Virus record (IMG/VR): IMGVR_UViG_3300030333_007203 | Span: 981-38,169 of that record | Origin: a virus | Length of the DNA: 37,189 nt | Strand: one strand, 5' to 3' | In this document: piece by piece, positions 24,144-37,189 of the stretch | Position numbering within the stretch: position 1 is the stretch's first letter | Layout of the letters: every line of letters begins with the position of its first letter | Program-made: the position numbers and the translations under genes | The notes under the pieces: model-generated | The model's input: the letters and a program-made list of their open reading frames with translations, nothing else | Database searches by the model: none | What the model was told of the DNA's origin: nothing

Positions 24144-25308
24144 GATAACATTTGTAATACCCAGTAGAAATAATTTAGAATTTTTACAATTGGCATATAA
24201 GTCAATTCGTAATTTAGAAACTATTCATGAAATATTAGTATTGAATGATGGAAGTAAAGATGGAACATTTGAATGGATTGAAGAAACAAGAAAGGCAGAT
24301 GATAGTTTAATTGCTCATCATAATTTAGATACATCAAAAAGAGTTGGTATTGTAGGAATGTTTGATAAAGGTATAGAAATGGCCAAGACAGAAATTATAT
24401 TTGCATTCCATGCTGATATGGTAGCTGCACCCGATTTAGATAAATATATCTTAGAACATTTAGAAAGAGGCACTGTTGTATCGGCAACAAGAGTAGAACC
24501 ACCATTACATCCTCCAGGACCAGAAAAAATAATTGAAGATTTTGGATCGGAAGTAGAAGACTTTGATATTGATAAATTTTATGATTGGGCAAGACAACCA
24601 AAAATGGGTTCTGGTCAAGTAACAGAAGGTATATTTGCTCCATGGTGTATGTATAAAGAAGATTTTCTTTCTATAGGGGGCCATGATGAATTATTTGCAC
24701 CCCAATCTCGAGAGGATTCGGATTTATTTAATAGATTCCAGCTCAATGGGTATAAACTTAAACAGTCATGGGATGCATTAGTATATCATTTTACTAGTAG
24801 AGGTAGTAGATTTAATAAACATGCTGGGGGAGATACTATGAAAGATTCACCGGAATGGCAGAAAACAAATCATAAGAATGTGCGTAATTTTATTAGAAAA
24901 TGGGGAACTAATGTTCAACACGATGCCCTAATGAAACCCATAATTACTCCTAAATATGATATAGGATTTGTAGTTAAAAATTGTAGTTTGGATCACTTAT
25001 ACACATTAGAACCATGGTGTTCAACAATATATTCAGATGCAAGATATTTAGAATATATTTGTTCTGAACAACCTAATACTACATATAATTTAGCTAAAAA
25101 GGTGCTACCATTTGATAATGAAAAACATAATGATATTTTAATAGAATTTGATGCATCAAAATTAAACGAGGCACATTTTCATAATATAATAACAAAATTA
25201 AATCATATAATTAATGACTCTGGAGATATAGGAACTGCACGGTTAGACATATTTATAATAAACATACTAAGTATGAATACTTACGAAAAGGAGTTAATAC
25301 ATGCGTAA
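24136..25308 (+). CDS. Glycosyltransferase, GT-A fold, GT2-like
   Basis: 390 residues. I-T-F-V-I-P-S-R-N-N-L is the opening strand and E-I-L-V-L-N-D-G-S-K-D-G-T the UDP-binding region. Its D-x-D position reads F-A-F-H92-A-D94-M-V, with H-A-D instead of D-A-D. F-A-P-Q-S-R-E-D-S-D-L-F-N-R-F is the acceptor-side R-E-D of GT2 enzymes. An extra domain of about 130 residues follows the GT2 core from about residue 265, rich in Asn and His and resembling no domain I know. An AAGGAG site supports the ATG. Its end overlaps the GalE-like gene by eight bases. Confidence 0.83.
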   Translation: MDKITFVIPSRNNLEFLQLAYKSIRNLETIHEILVLNDGSKDGTFEWIEETRKADDSLIAHHNLDTSKRVGIVGMFDKGIEMAKTEIIFAFHADMVAAPDLDKYILEHLERGTVVSATRVEPPLHPPGPEKIIEDFGSEVEDFDIDKFYDWARQPKMGSGQVTEGIFAPWCMYKEDFLSIGGHDELFAPQSREDSDLFNRFQLNGYKLKQSWDALVYHFTSRGSRFNKHAGGDTMKDSPEWQKTNHKNVRNFIRKWGTNVQHDALMKPIITPKYDIGFVVKNCSLDHLYTLEPWCSTIYSDARYLEYICSEQPNTTYNLAKKVLPFDNEKHNDILIEFDASKLNEAHFHNIITKLNHIINDSGDIGTARLDIFIINILSMNTYEKELIHA

Positions 25309-29881: not shown

Positions 29882-30649
29882 ATGGCAATCAAGCTTACCA
29901 ATTTACTTATTGAAACTGTATTTAAGGAAGAATCAAACAATGATCCTGTCCTGGATACTTTGATACCTAATCCTGCCACAGGGAAAAATATCAAAGTAAG
30001 ATCTGCACTATCAAGAACTGATCACCCAGCATATAATGCGGCGAAGGAATTCATAGCAGGTAAAATGAGCGATGAAGACGCCACTGTAGCAACACAACAA
30101 CAACCTGCAGAAGAACAACCACCGGCAGAAGAACAACCACCAGCAGAAGAACAACCACCTACAGACGTAGCTACAGATGATGAAGCTATTTTAATGTCAA
30201 AGGGATTTGACGAAGAGCAAACAGCAGCTATGATAAGTATAAAAGATGAAGGATCGGCAATAGATTCAGAACTTGAGCGAATATCTAGCATAGATCCTGA
30301 TACATGGAGTAAATTATCAGACGAGAAGCAAAAAGAAATGAATGATAATTATACTGCTAAGATAGGTGAAAAGAGAGATAATTTACGATCTCAAATTGAT
30401 ACATATATAGAGAACGGATTAGAACCGGAACCAGAATTGGTTGATGAATTTAATGCATATGCTCAAGCTGCTGATGACAGAGAATTAGCAGGTATGACTG
30501 ATGAAGAAAGAGCATCTCATTATGAAGAAGAAGGTGAATCAGCTCTAGCCAAAAGATATCAACAGGGATTAGACATGATCAATATTGATCAGGAATTAGC
30601 GCAGGACGCAGGAGCCTTTGATGCTGAGGAAACTGCCACTGGAATATAG
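29882..30649 (+). CDS. Acidic internal head protein candidate with capsid-targeting peptide
   Basis: 255 residues from the ATG at 29882; an in-frame ATG at 29858 lies inside the preceding gene. The N-terminus is M-A-I-K-L-T-N-L-L-I-E11-T, the first member of a six-gene set sharing this decapeptide; prohead-protease cleavage after E11 is predicted from T4. The rest is very acidic, helical and low complexity, with three perfect 18-base repeats coding P-A-E-E-Q-P (30104-30157), then helices with many Glu and Asp. This resembles scaffold or core proteins, such as the acidic T4 gp67/gp68 or internal proteins, in character though not in sequence. Function is inferred from the peptide and composition. 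Confidence 0.72.
   Translation: MAIKLTNLLIETVFKEESNNDPVLDTLIPNPATGKNIKVRSALSRTDHPAYNAAKEFIAGKMSDEDATVATQQQPAEEQPPAEEQPPAEEQPPTDVATDDEAILMSKGFDEEQTAAMISIKDEGSAIDSELERISSIDPDTWSKLSDEKQKEMNDNYTAKIGEKRDNLRSQIDTYIENGLEPEPELVDEFNAYAQAADDRELAGMTDEERASHYEEEGESALAKRYQQGLDMINIDQELAQDAGAFDAEETATGI
30104..30157. repeat. Three tandem 18-base repeats in the acidic protein gene
   Basis: Units at 30104-30121, 30122-30139 and 30140-30157 differ by only a few bases and each encodes P-A-E-E-Q-P. A fourth, partial unit continues to about 30160. The reading frame is kept, so unit number can change without breaking the protein. Confidence 0.85.
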
Positions 30650-30651
30650 TT

Positions 30652-31194
30652 ATGATTAGGTTATTAGATCTGCTATTAGAAAATAAAGGAAAGATCCTAA
30701 GTGTATTTGATTTTGATGATACATTGGCTAAAACAGATAGTTGGGTTTATGTAAAAATGCCCAATGGAAAGGAAAAAAAATTAGATCCTGCAGAATTTGC
30801 AGTCTATAGAGCTAAGAAAGGTGAAGAGTTTGACTTTAGGGATTTTGATAGACAATTAAGAAATCCTAGAATTATAAAGAAAAATGTTGAATTATTAAAA
30901 AAGCAATTAGAAAAAGCCAAACGAGTATCTAGAGGTGCACGTAAAGTAACAATTTTAACTGCAAGAAGATTAGGAGCTCCAGTAAATCACTTTTTTAAGA
31001 CCATAGGAATGGATGTATATACCATAGCTTTGGGCAGTGCAAACCCACAACATAAAGCAGATTGGATAGAAAAGCAAATTAAAAAAGGATATGGAACTGT
31101 TTATTTTATGGATGATAGTGCAAAGAATGTTTCAGCTGTACTAGGTTTAAAAAGAAAATATCCAGATGTAAATATAGTAGCACAGAAAGTATAG
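30652..31194 (+). CDS. HAD-superfamily phosphatase with capsid-targeting peptide
   Basis: 180 residues. M-I-R-L-L-D-L-L-L-E10-N is the shared N-terminal peptide. Immediately after comes the HAD core: motif I F-D20-F-D22-D-T, motif II V-T-I-L-T-A-R-R, a lysine in the region K-A-D-W-I-E-K (motif III), and motif IV F-M-D154-D155-S-A-K-N. All four catalytic motifs are present, so the enzyme should be active. Substrate unknown; members act on nucleotides, sugar phosphates, DNA 3' ends or proteins. The tail is short and there is no cap domain except a small insert with D-P-A-E-F-A-V-Y. The gene starts two bases after the previous stop. Packaging in the head is inferred from the peptide. Confidence 0.8.
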   Translation: MIRLLDLLLENKGKILSVFDFDDTLAKTDSWVYVKMPNGKEKKLDPAEFAVYRAKKGEEFDFRDFDRQLRNPRIIKKNVELLKKQLEKAKRVSRGARKVTILTARRLGAPVNHFFKTIGMDVYTIALGSANPQHKADWIEKQIKKGYGTVYFMDDSAKNVSAVLGLKRKYPDVNIVAQKV

Positions 31195-31198
31195 CCAT

Positions 31199-31360
31199 AT
31201 GATCAAACTTAAAAAAATATTAAAAGAAAATAAGAAACCGATTAATGAATTAGTTTTAGCCTCAGCTACACTAGCTATGCTATATAAATTTATTAAAAGT
31301 TGGGCAAAGAAAAATCCTAGTATGGTCGGTAAATTAAAGGATATGGTTAAGGGTCTATGA
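31199..31360 (+). CDS. 53-residue peptide with capsid-targeting sequence
   Basis: ATG 31199 to TGA 31358-31360. It begins M-I-K-L-K-K-I-L-K-E10-N, the decapeptide of the set, and predicted cleavage would leave a 43-residue basic product. The middle (E-L-V-L-A-S-A-T-L-A-M-L-Y-K-F-I) is a hydrophobic helix long enough to sit in a membrane or pack as a coiled helix, and the end is lysine rich (W-A-K-K-N-P, K-L-K-D-M-V-K). The stop overlaps the next start (ATGA). Small size, shared peptide and clean packing between two related genes support it. Role unknown; a head-packaged membrane-active peptide is one guess. Confidence 0.65.
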   Translation: MIKLKKILKENKKPINELVLASATLAMLYKFIKSWAKKNPSMVGKLKDMVKGL

Positions 31361-31779
31361 TTAAATTAAAAGACATATTAACAGAAGCTATATCCAAGAA
31401 AGAAATAATGGATGTAGTAAATAAAGTATATCCACATATAGTAAAGGATTTAGGTGGTAAAAAACTACCGGTAGTAGTTCATAATAATATCTACAGACGA
31501 CTCAAAGCAGTTGGAGAGGAAGATTTAATGAAACAAAATAATCCATTTGCACAATATGATTGGGATACTAAAAAAATATATCTATATTCGTCGGCTATGA
31601 AAAATGTAGAAGAAATTATTAGATCATTATTACACGAACATACACATTCACTTCAGAATAAAAAGAAATTCGATGATGGATATGATTCTGGTAAATATAA
31701 TTATAAAACACATCCATATGAAAAGGCTGCAACAAAAGCAGAAAATAAGTGGAAAAACTATTTAAAGTATTTAAAATGA
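31357..31779 (+). CDS. Zinc metallopeptidase-like protein with capsid-targeting peptide
   Basis: 140 residues. N-terminus M-I-K-L-K-D-I-L-T-E10-A; predicted cleavage before Ala, as in T4. The catalytic site is L-L-H93-E94-H-T-H97-S-L-Q, a full H-E-x-x-H. A second acidic helix, H119-P-Y-E122-K-A-A-T-K-A-E, could supply the third zinc ligand in the gluzincin manner (E-x-x-A). The preceding part I-Y-L-Y-S-S-A and I-R-S-L-L-H-E fits the strand-helix order of minimal metallopeptidases. Mature size would be ~130 residues. It may process head proteins or act on host targets after injection. The overlap at both ends (ATGA) ties it to its neighbours. Confidence 0.78.
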   Translation: MIKLKDILTEAISKKEIMDVVNKVYPHIVKDLGGKKLPVVVHNNIYRRLKAVGEEDLMKQNNPFAQYDWDTKKIYLYSSAMKNVEEIIRSLLHEHTHSLQNKKKFDDGYDSGKYNYKTHPYEKAATKAENKWKNYLKYLK

Positions 31780-32468
31780 AAATAGATAATAATATTATAA
31801 TGGATAACTATGATAAGGAATGGTTAGAAAAATTAAAGGCTGATTATGAAAAAGCTATGCATTCCCGTCCCGATGATAAAAGATTTAATGATAAATTTTT
31901 CGTTCCTGGTAATAAACACAAAATGGGTGGATTAGGATCCTACATATGGAGAGGCGACAAATCCAGAAATGAACTATGTGGGATGAGTGAAATATCAGAT
32001 TATACAGAAAATTTATTATTTGCTCCAAATATTCCTTTTTTGGATTATATATTAAAAAATATGAATATATTCAAAAATAAGGAAATGATAGATAACGGAT
32101 GTGGTATGGGTATTTTATCTATATTCTTAAAACATATTAATATTAAATGTAATAATTTTGATAATATGTCTCAAATAGGAGATGTAAAACACAAATCATA
32201 TGAATCATTCTGGAAAAAATACGGAGTTACAGCACCATCAGTATCATTAGAAGCCCATAAGAGGAGTAAAGTTTTGCTATCTGCCGGAATATGGTTAAAT
32301 GATTCTTTTGAGAACGAAAGTTTTGATTATATATTAATGGATTCTTTATATACAAAAAAATCCAAATTTCCGTTTGAAAATTATGATCGCATAGATAGTT
32401 ATGATCTATCATGTCGGGATGAAGAAGTTGAAGTAACAATATATAGAAATAAAAATAATAATGATTAA
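31776..32468 (+). CDS. SAM-dependent methyltransferase-like protein
   Basis: 230 residues from the ATG at 31776, which overlaps the peptidase stop (ATGA); a frame from 31749 would add nine residues inside that gene. The SAM loop is E-M-I-D106-N-G-C-G-M-G-I-L-S, with C-N-N-F-D-N-M following as the acidic loop and F-D-Y-I-L-M-D-S-L-Y as the later strand. It lacks the shared N-terminal peptide, so it is either not packaged or not a member of the set. An early part, K-M-G-G-L-G-S-Y-I-W-R-G-D-K-S, is unusual. It might modify a protein, nucleic acid or sugar. The last bases overlap the next CTS-bearing gene. Confidence 0.68.
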   Translation: MKIDNNIIMDNYDKEWLEKLKADYEKAMHSRPDDKRFNDKFFVPGNKHKMGGLGSYIWRGDKSRNELCGMSEISDYTENLLFAPNIPFLDYILKNMNIFKNKEMIDNGCGMGILSIFLKHINIKCNNFDNMSQIGDVKHKSYESFWKKYGVTAPSVSLEAHKRSKVLLSAGIWLNDSFENESFDYILMDSLYTKKSKFPFENYDRIDSYDLSCRDEEVEVTIYRNKNNND

Positions 32469-33345
32469 ATTGACTGACATATTAGTTGAACAGATAGCAC
32501 CACAAAATAGTGTTGTGATATCCAAAAGGGATAGGCGAAAAAATAAAAGGAATAAGAATAAGCTTCCAAAGAATATAGAGCCCCAAGATTATCACTTGCA
32601 AGGTAATAGTAGAAAGAAGAGAATGACTAATCTATATCTTGATAAAATTAAACAAGAATATGAATTAAAGGGCACACCTGAAAAATGGGAAAGGTTTTTA
32701 ACAGTATATAAGGAAGCTGGATCGCCAAAAATAGTGGACCCTGAGCACGCAAGAGGATTACAAAAAATATTTAGTAAGAGAGGATTCTTTAATCCACTTA
32801 CTAAAACAATACACGGTGTAGAACCAATGTCTGATTTTGAAAGTGATATAGCTGATACTAATACATATATTCAATCAAGATTCCCAAATTTAACAGTAGA
32901 TGATATAGAAGGCAATCCTGAACTATATAATCAGTTTGTAGATGTTGAGCCATCTGATACTGTAACTGATGAATTAACCCATGCACTACAATTTCAGCCG
33001 GGCAATAAAAGAGGAAAACAAATTGCAAGATTCATAACAAAGGACCTTCCAATGCACATTAATCAAACAATATTAAAGGGCAAAAAGGATCCATATAAAA
33101 CACCAGGATCTACAGAACACCATGCACATACAGAAATCGGAATTCCGATGAAGCAATATATAAACACAGGAGATCGGGAATATTTAGATAAGGCTATAGC
33201 TATTGCAGGCGAAAAACCAGGCCATGATCACGATCACGATCACGATCATTCTACCCACCATGCATCTCGTAATGAAAGTATGATAAAAAGTATTGATTCA
33301 GAACTTGTGGAATATTTATATAAGAAAAAGGATGTAAGTGTATGA
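32461..33345 (+). CDS. Metallopeptidase-like protein (D-E-L-T-H) with capsid-targeting peptide
   Basis: 294 residues. M-I-K-L-T-D-I-L-V-E10-Q is the shared peptide. After a basic N-terminal segment, the middle has T-D170-E-L-T-H174-A-L-Q-F, which would be a H-E-L-T-H zinc site if the first residue were His; here it is Asp. A second segment, T-E-H-H-A-H-T-E-I-G, may supply other ligands. Near the C-terminus is H-D-H-D-H-D-H-D-H (residues 255-263), a metal-binding run. So it is either an altered-metal or inactive peptidase. It starts inside the end of the methyltransferase gene and overlaps the following gene by four bases. Confidence 0.68.
   Translation: MIKLTDILVEQIAPQNSVVISKRDRRKNKRNKNKLPKNIEPQDYHLQGNSRKKRMTNLYLDKIKQEYELKGTPEKWERFLTVYKEAGSPKIVDPEHARGLQKIFSKRGFFNPLTKTIHGVEPMSDFESDIADTNTYIQSRFPNLTVDDIEGNPELYNQFVDVEPSDTVTDELTHALQFQPGNKRGKQIARFITKDLPMHINQTILKGKKDPYKTPGSTEHHAHTEIGIPMKQYINTGDREYLDKAIAIAGEKPGHDHDHDHDHSTHHASRNESMIKSIDSELVEYLYKKKDVSV
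33223..33249. repeat. His-Asp dipeptide repeat in the D-E-L-T-H protein
   Basis: Six-base GATCAC-type units repeat to encode nine alternating His and Asp residues (255-263). Each unit contains GATC. Such runs bind divalent metals in other proteins. Confidence 0.8.
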
Positions 33346-34043
33346 TAAAGTATAAGCGAATAAATGGTGTAGAAAGCTTTGAAGAAGTATGCGAACATTG
33401 CGGAGAAAAGGTGAGAGATTTACATATTTCAGAAATAATTGTAAAGGCCAAAAATGACCCAAGAACAATTAGAGTAAAGAATTCATCTAATAAATATGAA
33501 GTGTTAAAAGATAAAGATGAGTATATTAGCGATAGGAGAGCAGACTGGGAAAGAAAGGGACTATTAGATTCAGGAGAAAAACTTAAATATAAGACCCGAC
33601 CCGAATCAATGTGCAGTGAATCTATAGATACAGAAACAGGAGTAACGTCCTCATTCTGTTATAAAACAGATAATACTAGATTTCTTGCAAAATATAGTTC
33701 TAGTTTTCATGCTGCATCCCAATTGAAAACAAATATAACAGGATCAAAGGTGGGGGTTGATAGAAAGGGTAATATTATAAGAATGAGATCAATAAAAAAT
33801 ATTAACCTATCTACTGGAGTAGCAGAAGCTGATTCGAGAGTAAAATATAAAGGACCAGATGAAACATTGTGGTGGAGAAAAACTGATTTGAGAACACGAA
33901 AAACATTTCTAGAGGCAGCACAGTCTTGTCCTACTTATATTGAAAGATATGGGAAAGAAGCAGTATATGAAGGTACAGTAGTATCAAGATATAAATCTGC
34001 AGATGAAATGAAAACAGATTTAGCTAAAAATAGATGTATATAA
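33342..34043 (+). CDS. Unknown cysteine-containing protein, 233 residues
   Basis: It begins M-I-K-Y-K-R-I-N-G-V-E-S-F-E-E, which lacks the [IL]-L-x-E of the set. An early C-E-H-C-G-E-K looks like half of a zinc site, and further cysteines (S-M-C-S-E, S-F-C-Y-K) lie around residues 90-107 and could complete it. The rest is basic, with L-W-W-R-K-T-D-L-R-T-R near residue 178. No family recognised. It overlaps the D-E-L-T-H gene (ATGA) and abuts the DUF192 gene with no gap. It may be a cofactor for one of the packaged enzymes, or a zinc-dependent nucleic-acid binder; both are guesses. Confidence 0.65.
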   Translation: MIKYKRINGVESFEEVCEHCGEKVRDLHISEIIVKAKNDPRTIRVKNSSNKYEVLKDKDEYISDRRADWERKGLLDSGEKLKYKTRPESMCSESIDTETGVTSSFCYKTDNTRFLAKYSSSFHAASQLKTNITGSKVGVDRKGNIIRMRSIKNINLSTGVAEADSRVKYKGPDETLWWRKTDLRTRKTFLEAAQSCPTYIERYGKEAVYEGTVVSRYKSADEMKTDLAKNRCI

Positions 34044-34901
34044 ATGATTAAACTAACAAACATATTAATAGAACAGATTATTAATGGTGCTCCATCACTT
34101 AAGAAAGTGAAGAAAGTGAAGAAATCATTGACCACTGATAGGGATTATGTATACAAACCTGTTCGTGAACAAGATACATATGAGATGGATCAACAAATTA
34201 CTAAATCTAAAAAAATGCCAATAGTTCAACGAATAGCATTAATCAATCAAATACGTAAAATGTTAGGAGAACAAAAGACATTAGATAAAATAAAACAATT
34301 TGCAAAAGATAACCTCCCATTTATTACACCCACAGACGAATTTGAAACCGATTCAGAAGCTTTTAGGGATGACATAAAAAAGGTTGTAAAAATAGCGACA
34401 CCAACTCATATTAAAGCTACAAAGGATCTTTACGATCTAGTTGCACCTAAAGTAAAAAAATATATGAAGAAGGATATTGAAGAAGGATCTATACAAGGAT
34501 TTCATACTATTAAAGAAAATGGAATAGCTAAAATAAATGGACATGAAATGGGAGTAGAAATACAATCCACACCAGAAGGTCTTCAAAAAGGATTAATGTT
34601 TAGAAAAGAAATACCTTCAGGAAAAGGTATGTTAATGAAATTCGGCAAGGATCAACCTGCAAACATCTGGATGAAAAACGTAAAACAGCCCTTGGACATT
34701 ATTTATATAAAAGATGATAAAGTAATAGATTTATTCAAAAATGCTATGCCTGATATGGGAGATGGCACGTTTGATAGTATAGGGGAAGTAATCTGTGACA
34801 TGGTATTAGAACTACCTGCAGGCGATATAGATAAATTTGATATTAAACCAGGCGATATGTTTGGGTTTAATGATTTAAGAAAAACAAACATAAATCAATA
34901 A
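34044..34901 (+). CDS. DUF192-domain protein with capsid-targeting peptide
   Basis: 285 residues. N-terminus M-I-K-L-T-N-I-L-I-E10-Q, then a lysine-rich stretch from a 9-base repeat (K-K-V-K-K-V-K-K, bases 34101-34124), a helical middle, and from about residue 165 a full DUF192 domain: G-L-Q-K-G-L-M-F-R, G-K-G-M-L-M-K-F, I-W-M-K-N-V-K-Q-P-L-D-I-I-Y-I, and L-E-L-P-A-G-D ... I-K-P-G-D. DUF192 is a small beta-barrel family of unknown function, usually secreted or free-standing in bacteria and archaea. Its fusion to a head-targeting peptide is unusual. It is the last gene of the cassette, followed by a 12-base gap with AAGGAG. Confidence 0.78.
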   Translation: MIKLTNILIEQIINGAPSLKKVKKVKKSLTTDRDYVYKPVREQDTYEMDQQITKSKKMPIVQRIALINQIRKMLGEQKTLDKIKQFAKDNLPFITPTDEFETDSEAFRDDIKKVVKIATPTHIKATKDLYDLVAPKVKKYMKKDIEEGSIQGFHTIKENGIAKINGHEMGVEIQSTPEGLQKGLMFRKEIPSGKGMLMKFGKDQPANIWMKNVKQPLDIIYIKDDKVIDLFKNAMPDMGDGTFDSIGEVICDMVLELPAGDIDKFDIKPGDMFGFNDLRKTNINQ

Positions 34902-35219: not shown

Positions 35220-37189
35220 ATGAAAAGGTTTCTAATGTTATTGGCCGTAATATGGTCTTTTAGTTTATCAGCCCAAACAGATAGTTGGGTAAATTTTGCT
35301 GTTCAATATGACTATTGGGCATCACAAGAATCTGGATTCACCTTTGTATCAAATACAAATGGTGATACTATATTATATCACGAACCTACTCAACCTTGGG
35401 AGTATTTAGATACTATAGTAGATTGTAATTCAGGACCATATATTATTACATTAAATGATTCATATGGAGATGGTTGGGCATCATATCAATCAGGACAGTT
35501 AATGTCACCTTTTCCAGAATTCAAAATGTCTAATGATTGTCAAGGAATGATATTTTATGCTGATTCTACTGCATTAATAGGATTTTCAGTATTAGATACT
35601 TTAGTTAATATTAATCCATGTGCACCTCCTGTATCAGGTTGTATGGATACAAATGCACTTAATTATAATTCACTCGCCACTATAGATGATGGGTCTTGTA
35701 CTTATCCTCCATGTGGCGGTCTTATTTGGACTAATGTATATCAAAATTGTCAACCAAATGGTCAGGCATTAACAGTATTTGAATGGGAAACTGCAGCTAC
35801 TGATATAAATTGTGAAGTAACAAAGGTGTGGATTAGTAATGAAAATGGCTTAGGACCACTCCAGTTCCCAGGATATTGGCCTGCAGGAGGACCTCATAAT
35901 TTTGCATTTAATACAGGACCAGGTCAAATGCCACCAAATTGGTCAGAAGAGTTTTATTGTCAATTAGAATTTGCAGATGGATCAATGTCAGATACAATTG
36001 CATATACTCCATATGCATGTATCCCAGGCTGTTTGGACCCAGCTCAAATATCATACAATCCTTGGGCAACAATAGATGACGGATCATGTGCAGGAACAAC
36101 ATGTGATACAAATACACAATATCAAATATCTATTTCAATAACATTAGACAATTGGCCGGGCGAAACAAGTTGGCAATTTGTAGATGGATTAGGTAATACA
36201 TTTGATTATCCGGTAGGAACATATGACTTTAATGATATAGGACAAACATATACTTATACTTTCTGTGTAGACCAAAATGCTGCATTTGAAATGATTATCA
36301 ATGATAGTTATGGTGATGGTATGGCAGGTTCTACTTCAGGTGGTTCTATGGATGGCGAGATTTTTATATATGCTTGTAATGGAGATACAATTTGGTATAT
36401 GGATAATCCCGGATTTGGAAGTGTATTATATTCAGGCGCACAAACAGCAACACCTTGTCCTACTATTCCAGTAATAGATGGATGTACTGATGATGATTAT
36501 GTAGAATTTAATCCAGCAGCAAACAATGATGATGGATCATGTGCGACATTACACACTTACGGATGTACAGATTCTACAGCATTTAATTATAATCCAAATG
36601 CAACAATGATGGATTTAACACCAGACTGTGATTATGAATTATGGATCGGAGATGCTGGAGGAGATGGATGGGGTAACTCATTTATAGGAGTTTATCAAAA
36701 CGGTATAAATCTTGGAACTTATACAATGGGACCGGGTAATTACCAACAGACTTTCAATATTATATTAGACCCAGGAGTTCCAGTAGAAGTATTCTATTTT
36801 GAAGTAGGTGGACCACAACAACCACCAGAAGAGGTACAATTCCAAACTTGGCACAATTCATTCAAGTTAACAAATGCAGATGGAGTTGTTTTAATGCATG
36901 AAGGACAAAATCCTTTTGCAAATAATGGTCAAGGAGCACTTCAAGGATTTGAATCTCCATTCTGGACAAAATATATAGGGATACCATTCTGTGGAAATAC
37001 ATGTGAACCTGTAATTTTAGGTTGTATGGATTCAACGGCATTAAATTATAATCCTAATGCAAATACACCAGATACTTGTATTCCAACAATATATGGTTGT
37101 ACTAATGATTTAGCATTCAATTATGATCCAAATGCTACTGTAGATGATAATTCATGTATAGCAGTAGTAAATGGTTGTATGGATTCATT
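35220..37189 (+). CDS. Exported cysteine-repeat protein, N-terminal 656 codons (continues beyond window)
   Basis: Open from the ATG at 35220 to the window end. The N-terminus M-K-R-F-L-M-L-L-A-V-I-W-S-F-S-L-S-A-Q is a signal peptide whose A-Q end is typical of Bacteroidota. The mature chain is beta-rich, with seven copies (the last cut off) of a ~21-residue module, G-C-(M/T/L)-D-x-x-A-x-N-Y-N-P-x-A-x-x-D-D-G-S-C, at 35637, 36027, 36480, 36561, 37020, 37095 and 37173. Three D-(S/A)-(Y/G)-G-D-G-(W/M) segments lie at residues 79, 361 and 477. Such modules are common in secreted marine Bacteroidota proteins and may bind calcium. A tail-fibre adhesin or an exported surface protein are both possible. 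GGAGA precedes the ATG. Confidence 0.82.
   Translation, partial: MKRFLMLLAVIWSFSLSAQTDSWVNFAVQYDYWASQESGFTFVSNTNGDTILYHEPTQPWEYLDTIVDCNSGPYIITLNDSYGDGWASYQSGQLMSPFPEFKMSNDCQGMIFYADSTALIGFSVLDTLVNINPCAPPVSGCMDTNALNYNSLATIDDGSCTYPPCGGLIWTNVYQNCQPNGQALTVFEWETAATDINCEVTKVWISNENGLGPLQFPGYWPAGGPHNFAFNTGPGQMPPNWSEEFYCQLEFADGSMSDTIAYTPYACIPGCLDPAQISYNPWATIDDGSCAGTTCDTNTQYQISISITLDNWPGETSWQFVDGLGNTFDYPVGTYDFNDIGQTYTYTFCVDQNAAFEMIINDSYGDGMAGSTSGGSMDGEIFIYACNGDTIWYMDNPGFGSVLYSGAQTATPCPTIPVIDGCTDDDYVEFNPAANNDDGSCATLHTYGCTDSTAFNYNPNATMMDLTPDCDYELWIGDAGGDGWGNSFIGVYQNGINLGTYTMGPGNYQQTFNIILDPGVPVEVFYFEVGGPQQPPEEVQFQTWHNSFKLTNADGVVLMHEGQNPFANNGQGALQGFESPFWTKYIGIPFCGNTCEPVILGCMDSTALNYNPNANTPDTCIPTIYGCTNDLAFNYDPNATVDDNSCIAVVNGCMDS
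35637..37189. repeat. Seven GC-D...DDGSC protein modules, divergent at the DNA level
   Basis: Modules at 35637-35699, 36027-36089, 36480-36542, 36561-36629 (69 bases), 37020-37079 (60 bases), 37095-37157, and a partial one from 37173. Each begins Gly-Cys and ends with Cys, mostly 63 bases apart. The pairs are close in protein but not in DNA. The last three are nearly contiguous, so the array may continue past the window. Confidence 0.85.

Follow-up and report, generated by a model that had tools for sequence, protein, structure and literature searches.

A probable T4-type capsid-targeting propeptide heads unrelated proteins in uncultured T4-like phages

INTRODUCTION

Six genes lying close together in a fragment of a viral genome start with a similar short peptide and then encode proteins that differ completely. 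What is this peptide for, and why does it head such different proteins? To our knowledge, the phage proteins that enter the host together with the DNA are mostly unknown beyond a few model phages. A sequence-only reading of the locus had proposed a T4-like capsid-targeting peptide, cut by a gp21-type prohead protease, on a cassette of head-packaged and possibly injected proteins. The analysis reported here indicates that the common peptide is very probably a T4-type capsid-targeting propeptide that is removed by an S77 prohead protease.

RESULTS

Six genes of the window share an N-terminal leader

The window (the whole stretch analysed, 37,189 nucleotides) spans bases 981-38169 of a 38,993-base virus record, which is a fragment of a T4-like phage genome. 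According to our own reading of the translations, the cassette appears to be preceded by the end of a B-type DNA polymerase gene and by genes for a sliding clamp, GroES/GroEL, a clamp loader, a PhoH-like ATPase and sugar functions. Behind it lies the gene of a large repeat protein, cut off by the record end; this signal-peptide-like protein occupies window positions 35220-37189, continues to the end of the record, and contains many GCTDSTALNYNPxATxDDGSC repeats.

Re-reading the six starts between positions 29882 and 34901 reproduced exactly the peptides described earlier; they follow the pattern M-[IA]-x-L-x2-[IL]-L-x-E, with divergence afterwards (Table 1). The two interspersed genes, at 31776 and 33342, indeed lack the peptide, and the copies do use different codons (Leu4 is encoded by CTT, TTA, CTT, TTA, TTG and CTA). 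A scan of the entire 38,993-base record, which the sequence-only reading had proposed for the whole genome, found no further leader copies, and megablast of the window against isolate phages gave no match. No upstream motif was found that separated the leader genes from other genes, and a shared late promoter was therefore dropped as a candidate.

Pfam and PHROGs searches gave no notable match for leader gene 1 and did not reveal two recognisable domains in any one leader protein of the window. A search for relatives of leader gene 5 found none. The product of leader gene 6 matched PF02643 (DUF192) at 1.4e-24 in the Pfam search; few DUF192 relatives were found, and these lacked the MIKL leader.

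Table 1. Positions of the leader genes and interspersed genes of the window, and of loci with a longer leader in other records
Feature	Position	Strand	Description
Leader gene 1	29882..30649	+	MAIKLTNLLIE (29882-29914), then acidic low-complexity region of 244 aa
Leader gene 2	30652..31194	+	MIRLLDLLLE (30652-30681), then HAD-type phosphatase domain (DFDDT)
Leader gene 3	31199..31360	+	MIKLKKILKE (31199-31228), then basic 43-aa tail with hydrophobic segment
Leader gene 4	31357..31779	+	MIKLKDILTE (31357-31386), then zincin-like metallopeptidase domain (HEHTH)
Interspersed gene without leader	31776..32468	+	Possible methyltransferase (weak); starts MKIDNNIIMDNYDKEW
Leader gene 5	32461..33345	+	MIKLTDILVE (32461-32490), then orphan domain; 284 aa
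Interspersed gene without leader	33342..34043	+	Starts MIKYKRINGVESFEE; conserved near leader genes in relatives
Leader gene 6	34044..34901	+	MIKLTNILIE (34044-34073), then 160 aa of unknown type and C-terminal DUF192
Longer leader	L085:2700-3350		Ends in [LI]-x-E
Longer leader	L089:12872-13501		Ends in [LI]-x-E
Longer leader	immuto 102294		
Longer leader	immuto 113188		
Longer leader	G021 115680		

The leader matches the T4 targeting sequence at the mapped positions

In T4 IPIII, ten residues suffice as a targeting sequence; mutagenesis assigned targeting to residues 4 and 7 and processing to residues 8 and 10, and showed that Asp10 blocks processing but leaves targeting intact (PMC9026906). 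The same four positions are fixed in the leader (L4, I/L7, L8 and E10), a match that supports the T4-like capsid-targeting reading. MKTYQEFIAE aligns with MIKLTDILVE free of gaps, with a hydrophobic residue at 4 and at 7, I/L at 8 and E10, and all six window leaders end in the gp21 cleavage motif [LI]-x-E. The claim that T4 internal proteins begin with MKTYQEFIAE holds for IPII and IPIII, but not for IPI, which starts MKTFKEFTSTTTPVSTITE. T4 gp24, a head-vertex protein that gp21 cleaves, has a start (MAKINELLREST) that comes close to the window leader; its propeptide, MAKINELLRE/S (here and below, a slash marks a known or putative cut), is very like it. T4 Alt is cut at ITE-6.

As in the window, T4 IPI, IPII and IPIII have a ten-residue N-terminal leader with determinants at positions 4, 7, 8 and 10 and an [LI]-x-E end, behind which the mature parts are unrelated. 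The two sets differ in leader type (MIKLxxILxE in the window, MKTYQEFIAE in T4), and the window-type leader is found on a much larger number of families, including many enzymes; among the matches, no T4 internal protein was seen. The system is classed here as a variant of the T4 internal-protein system, with a different leader and a wider cargo.

The leader is widespread in viral contigs

A scan of public viral contigs with a degenerate DNA pattern for MIKL-x2-IL-x-E identified at least 151 leaders, all of those listed standing at the start of an ORF no shorter than 40 aa (median 148 aa). When the sequences after residue 14 of the gene-start occurrences, plus the Asp10 forms, were clustered (BLAST, single linkage), the mature parts fell into at least 75 clusters. 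Both in the window and among the scan matches, the leader sits on unrelated proteins with no common domain. Families seen among the matches listed were DUF192, NUDIX, HD, RNase T-type exonuclease and zeta/AAA kinases; others were RimK ATP-grasp, 5'-nucleotidase, M23 peptidase, phage lysozyme, LRR and ART-PolyVal (PF18760). Longer genomes had 2-10 leader genes each, partly in cassettes. Flavobacterium phage vB_FspM_immuto (immuto in Table 1) likewise bears the leader, on the products encoded at 24569, 109868 and 112261, and has an S77 protease. These sequence matches support the view that the leader idea extends well beyond the window. A Thr9 sub-pattern was present in at least 119 stretches; Thr makes up 6% of position 9, and the collection might hold roughly 2000 or more leaders, a figure that is only an extrapolation from this share. 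A literature search for the leader peptide strings found no paper.

The Pelagibacter phage HTVC008M lacks the MIKL leader (two loose matches among 198 genes), despite having S77 and related cargo. The same P-loop kinase follows MIPFILKE/G in HTVC008M (106562) and MIKLKDILNE/G in L013:4605; it may be noted in passing that this looks like lineage-specific leaders sharing one cut motif.

Asp10 variants and domain junctions point to proteolytic removal

The scan was repeated with Asp at position 10. Genuine Asp10 leaders were rarer than Glu10 leaders and nearly always contained another [LI]-x-E at residues 9-20. Among the matches listed, a shifted or downstream [LI]-x-E was present by residue 20 in 17 of 20 Asp10 leaders versus 27 of 138 Glu10 leaders (p = 1.6e-8); when the listed matches were compared by family, the values were 6/6 and 11/71 (p = 5e-5). 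A within-protein shuffle test of the six Asp10 family representatives gave a weaker result (p = 0.03). Examples with a replacement site are MIKLTEILQDIIAE/KK, MIKLKDILKDILLE/D and MIKLKEILE/D. Further, differing leaders placed before one cargo domain all end in [LI]-x-E.

The HAD family of the gene at 30652 showed the motif within a few residues of the domain in 15 of 16 N-terminally extended members, the window's own protein included; the extension of one relative (L260) ends in FKE, not [LI]-x-E. In a relative encoding a HAD-metallopeptidase fusion (L259:8001-8999), an arrangement that the window lacks, ILSE/G lies at the junction to the second domain (INAILSE/GMSKN). Another fused cargo protein (L262:7770-8504) has TKILKE/RKVLSVFDFDD at its domain junction. 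In both fusions, it is as if the protease also separated the domains.

These sites bear on the best-surviving alternative, in which no protease would remove the leader, and it would act either as a scaffold-binding helix that stays in place or as a docking tag for another part of the virion (tail, baseplate or neck). The leader is predicted to be a short helix, and among its bearers are peptidoglycan hydrolases and M23 peptidases, for which a different place in the virion is conceivable; the strict Glu10, with replacement [LI]-x-E motifs in the Asp10 variants, and the motif preserved at domain junctions point to proteolysis instead, making this alternative improbable. Together with the S77 genes of long relatives (see below), the replacement and junction sites favour the gp21-type cleavage that had been proposed.

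Still less credit can be given to the idea that the peptide has no role of its own and that the likeness stems from a preference in translation initiation or from a mobile DNA cassette upstream. The genes follow one another head to tail, and longer N-termini are common to some paralogues of a single phage (L027 and L036), as such a cassette would predict; against it, codons vary among copies, no common upstream element was found, and residues 4, 7, 8 and 10 are constant over at least 75 clusters while the following residues vary.

Significance was tested with the regular expression M-x(1-3)-[LF]-x2-[IL]-L-x-E. In the window record it matched 6 of 52 genes, none of 262 internal Met residues and none of 1040 shuffled N-termini; in eight phages taken together it matched 39/1403 gene starts versus 4/5614 internal Met (Fisher p = 2e-23). 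The leader is not due to chance: although I, K, L and N abound in AT-rich genomes such as this one, the idea that amphipathic N-termini merely converged is refuted by this test and has a negligible probability.

Long leader-bearing records encode an S77 prohead protease

No prohead protease was seen in the ORF lists of the 39-kb window record; this record has no head genes, and the missing protease therefore says nothing. Among 40 records with the leader, 19 gave a match to PF03420 (S77). These include all seven above 130 kb, and the tally above that size becomes nine of nine when two relatives with window-type cassettes, which carry the window's HAD gene and S77, are counted (G052 and G053; 134 and 138 kb). 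S77 is a core T4-like gene, so that its co-occurrence with the leader is necessary but not sufficient and may only reflect lineage. In G053 a metallopeptidase with the leader adjoins HAD, while the G052 metallopeptidase has a longer N-terminal extension. No S77 was found in the 129.6-kb record G047, nor in the 33 searched records whose HAD homologue lies inside a large leaderless protein. The S77 copies retain the GEL[DN]HP and G[VI]SSR motifs, common to T4 gp21.

HAD, metallopeptidase and ADP-ribosyltransferase-like cargo

A close HAD orthologue without leader (L073, MGRILRVFDFDD) indicates that HAD cargo need not always be packaged. In other phages, leaderless HAD homologues lie inside proteins of about 2300-2900 aa (L273-L335; for example, L278:3633-10511), a layout that matches the one described for polyvalent proteins, which are injected with several effector domains in one polypeptide (PMC5512222). 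Pfam and PHROGs gave no confident domain for two of these giant proteins, and in our own reading the adjoining genes look like those of internal virion proteins. The idea of injected enzyme domains is common to polyvalent proteins and the leader cargo, and ART-PolyVal was found here as a leader protein; the difference is that here each domain is a small protein in its own right, headed by its own leader. The T4-like phages analysed seem to deliver domains of the same kind as individually tagged proteins.

Orthologues of the metallopeptidase at 31357 retain the leader. The window protein matched DUF3920 below the cut-off (8e-5, Pfam). Its structural model had a mean pLDDT of 82, with 45 in the leader block versus 90-98 in the next blocks; Foldseek matches to solved zincins were weak (best E 0.05, the top ones being metallopeptidases) and only agree with the HExxH motif.

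An ART-like domain starting [AG]KQ(V/I)G-LYHF follows MIKLIDILRE, MIKLIDLIE, MIKLKDILLE or a longer MKxSxLKxLIKEE...LNE leader, with junctions such as MIKLIDILRE/AKQVGPLYHF, MIKLIDLIE/AKQVGILYHF and MKISELKLLIKEEINNVLNE/GKQIGTLYHF. Its model (mean pLDDT 74) aligned with Tpt1/KptA with Z 10.4 over 88 residues at 2.5 A, and with DarT with Z about 8. The modelled ART fold and ART-PolyVal PF18760 speak for a parallel with T4 Alt, an ADP-ribosyltransferase that is itself packaged and has a short [LI]-x-E propeptide; judged by the matches found, however, the present ART domains are closer to Tpt1/KptA/DarT or ART-PolyVal than to Alt. The longer leader, MKxSxLxxLIKEE..., constitutes a second class, found in front of the ART-like cargo that the MIKL leader also precedes (Table 1).

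Virion enzymes of a cyanophage bear an equivalent leader

The virion of the cyanomyovirus S-CREM2, a Synechococcus phage, has been analysed by mass spectrometry, and a SAM hydrolase, an APH/ChoK-like kinase and a cytidylyltransferase are among the non-structural proteins detected (PMC10665884). These start MKDFDSFLEE, MKRFDAFLTE and MKNFSSFLTE, respectively, and the detected ORF13 starts MKDLHSFLTE. The leader, M-x2-F-x2-FL-x-E (L at 4 in ORF13), is of the T4 type, as in the window, but has aromatic residues at positions 4 and 7. The loci of these proteins in OR473000 are 5081(-), 12846(-), 124608 and 10546(-).

The strict leader pattern was present in 3 of 40 detected versus 0 of 155 undetected ORFs (p = 0.008), a count in which ORF matching recovered three of the four leader proteins and lost the kinase. 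An early [LI]-x-E was found in 9 of 13 detected non-structural proteins encoded outside the tail region versus 21 of 149 undetected ones (p = 4e-5), the 13-protein subset having been chosen after the data were seen. The authors caution that the virion enzymes could be contaminants, and the main text of their report does not seem to mention a targeting sequence on them (PMC10665884). No virion proteome was found for the window's own lineage. The equivalent leaders on the virion-detected enzymes of S-CREM2, another T4-like phage, lend support to the idea of a head-packaged cassette.

DISCUSSION

With the common peptide read as a capsid-targeting propeptide, residues 4 and 7 would serve to dock the precursor into the scaffold core while the prohead assembles. 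A cut after Glu10 (P3 = L, P1 = E) by the S77 prohead protease would then free the mature protein inside the capsid, from which it would be ejected with the DNA. By analogy with T4, we infer that the proteins of the window lineage are packaged and cleaved; by analogy with IPI, IPIII and Alt, they would be injected into the host and act there, often against its defences. The window would represent one variable cargo cassette, comprising a HAD phosphatase, a metallopeptidase, a DUF192 protein and unknowns.

Over 70 unrelated proteins, including many enzymes, bear the leader, which suggests that these phages probably pack a large cargo for delivery into the bacteria they infect. On balance, it is likely that widespread uncultured aquatic T4-like phages use one lineage-specific, protease-removed head address, plus at least one alternative leader, to load a large and exchangeable repertoire of injected enzymes. 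If so, the leader would allow the effectors that a phage injects to be recognised by sequence alone. In uncultured T4-like phages, hundreds of 'hypothetical proteins' would become predicted effectors of the first minute of infection, among them ADP-ribosyltransferases, metallopeptidases, HAD, NUDIX, kinases and unknowns. The leader would also offer an explanation for the metabolic enzymes, such as cytidylyltransferases, in cyanophage virions.

A separate observation concerns the gp22-like scaffold homologues of four records (G012, G014, G029 and G031), which begin ..LLKE/AIADA and resemble the cargo leader ..ILKE. The cargo leader may mimic the N-terminus of the scaffold itself.
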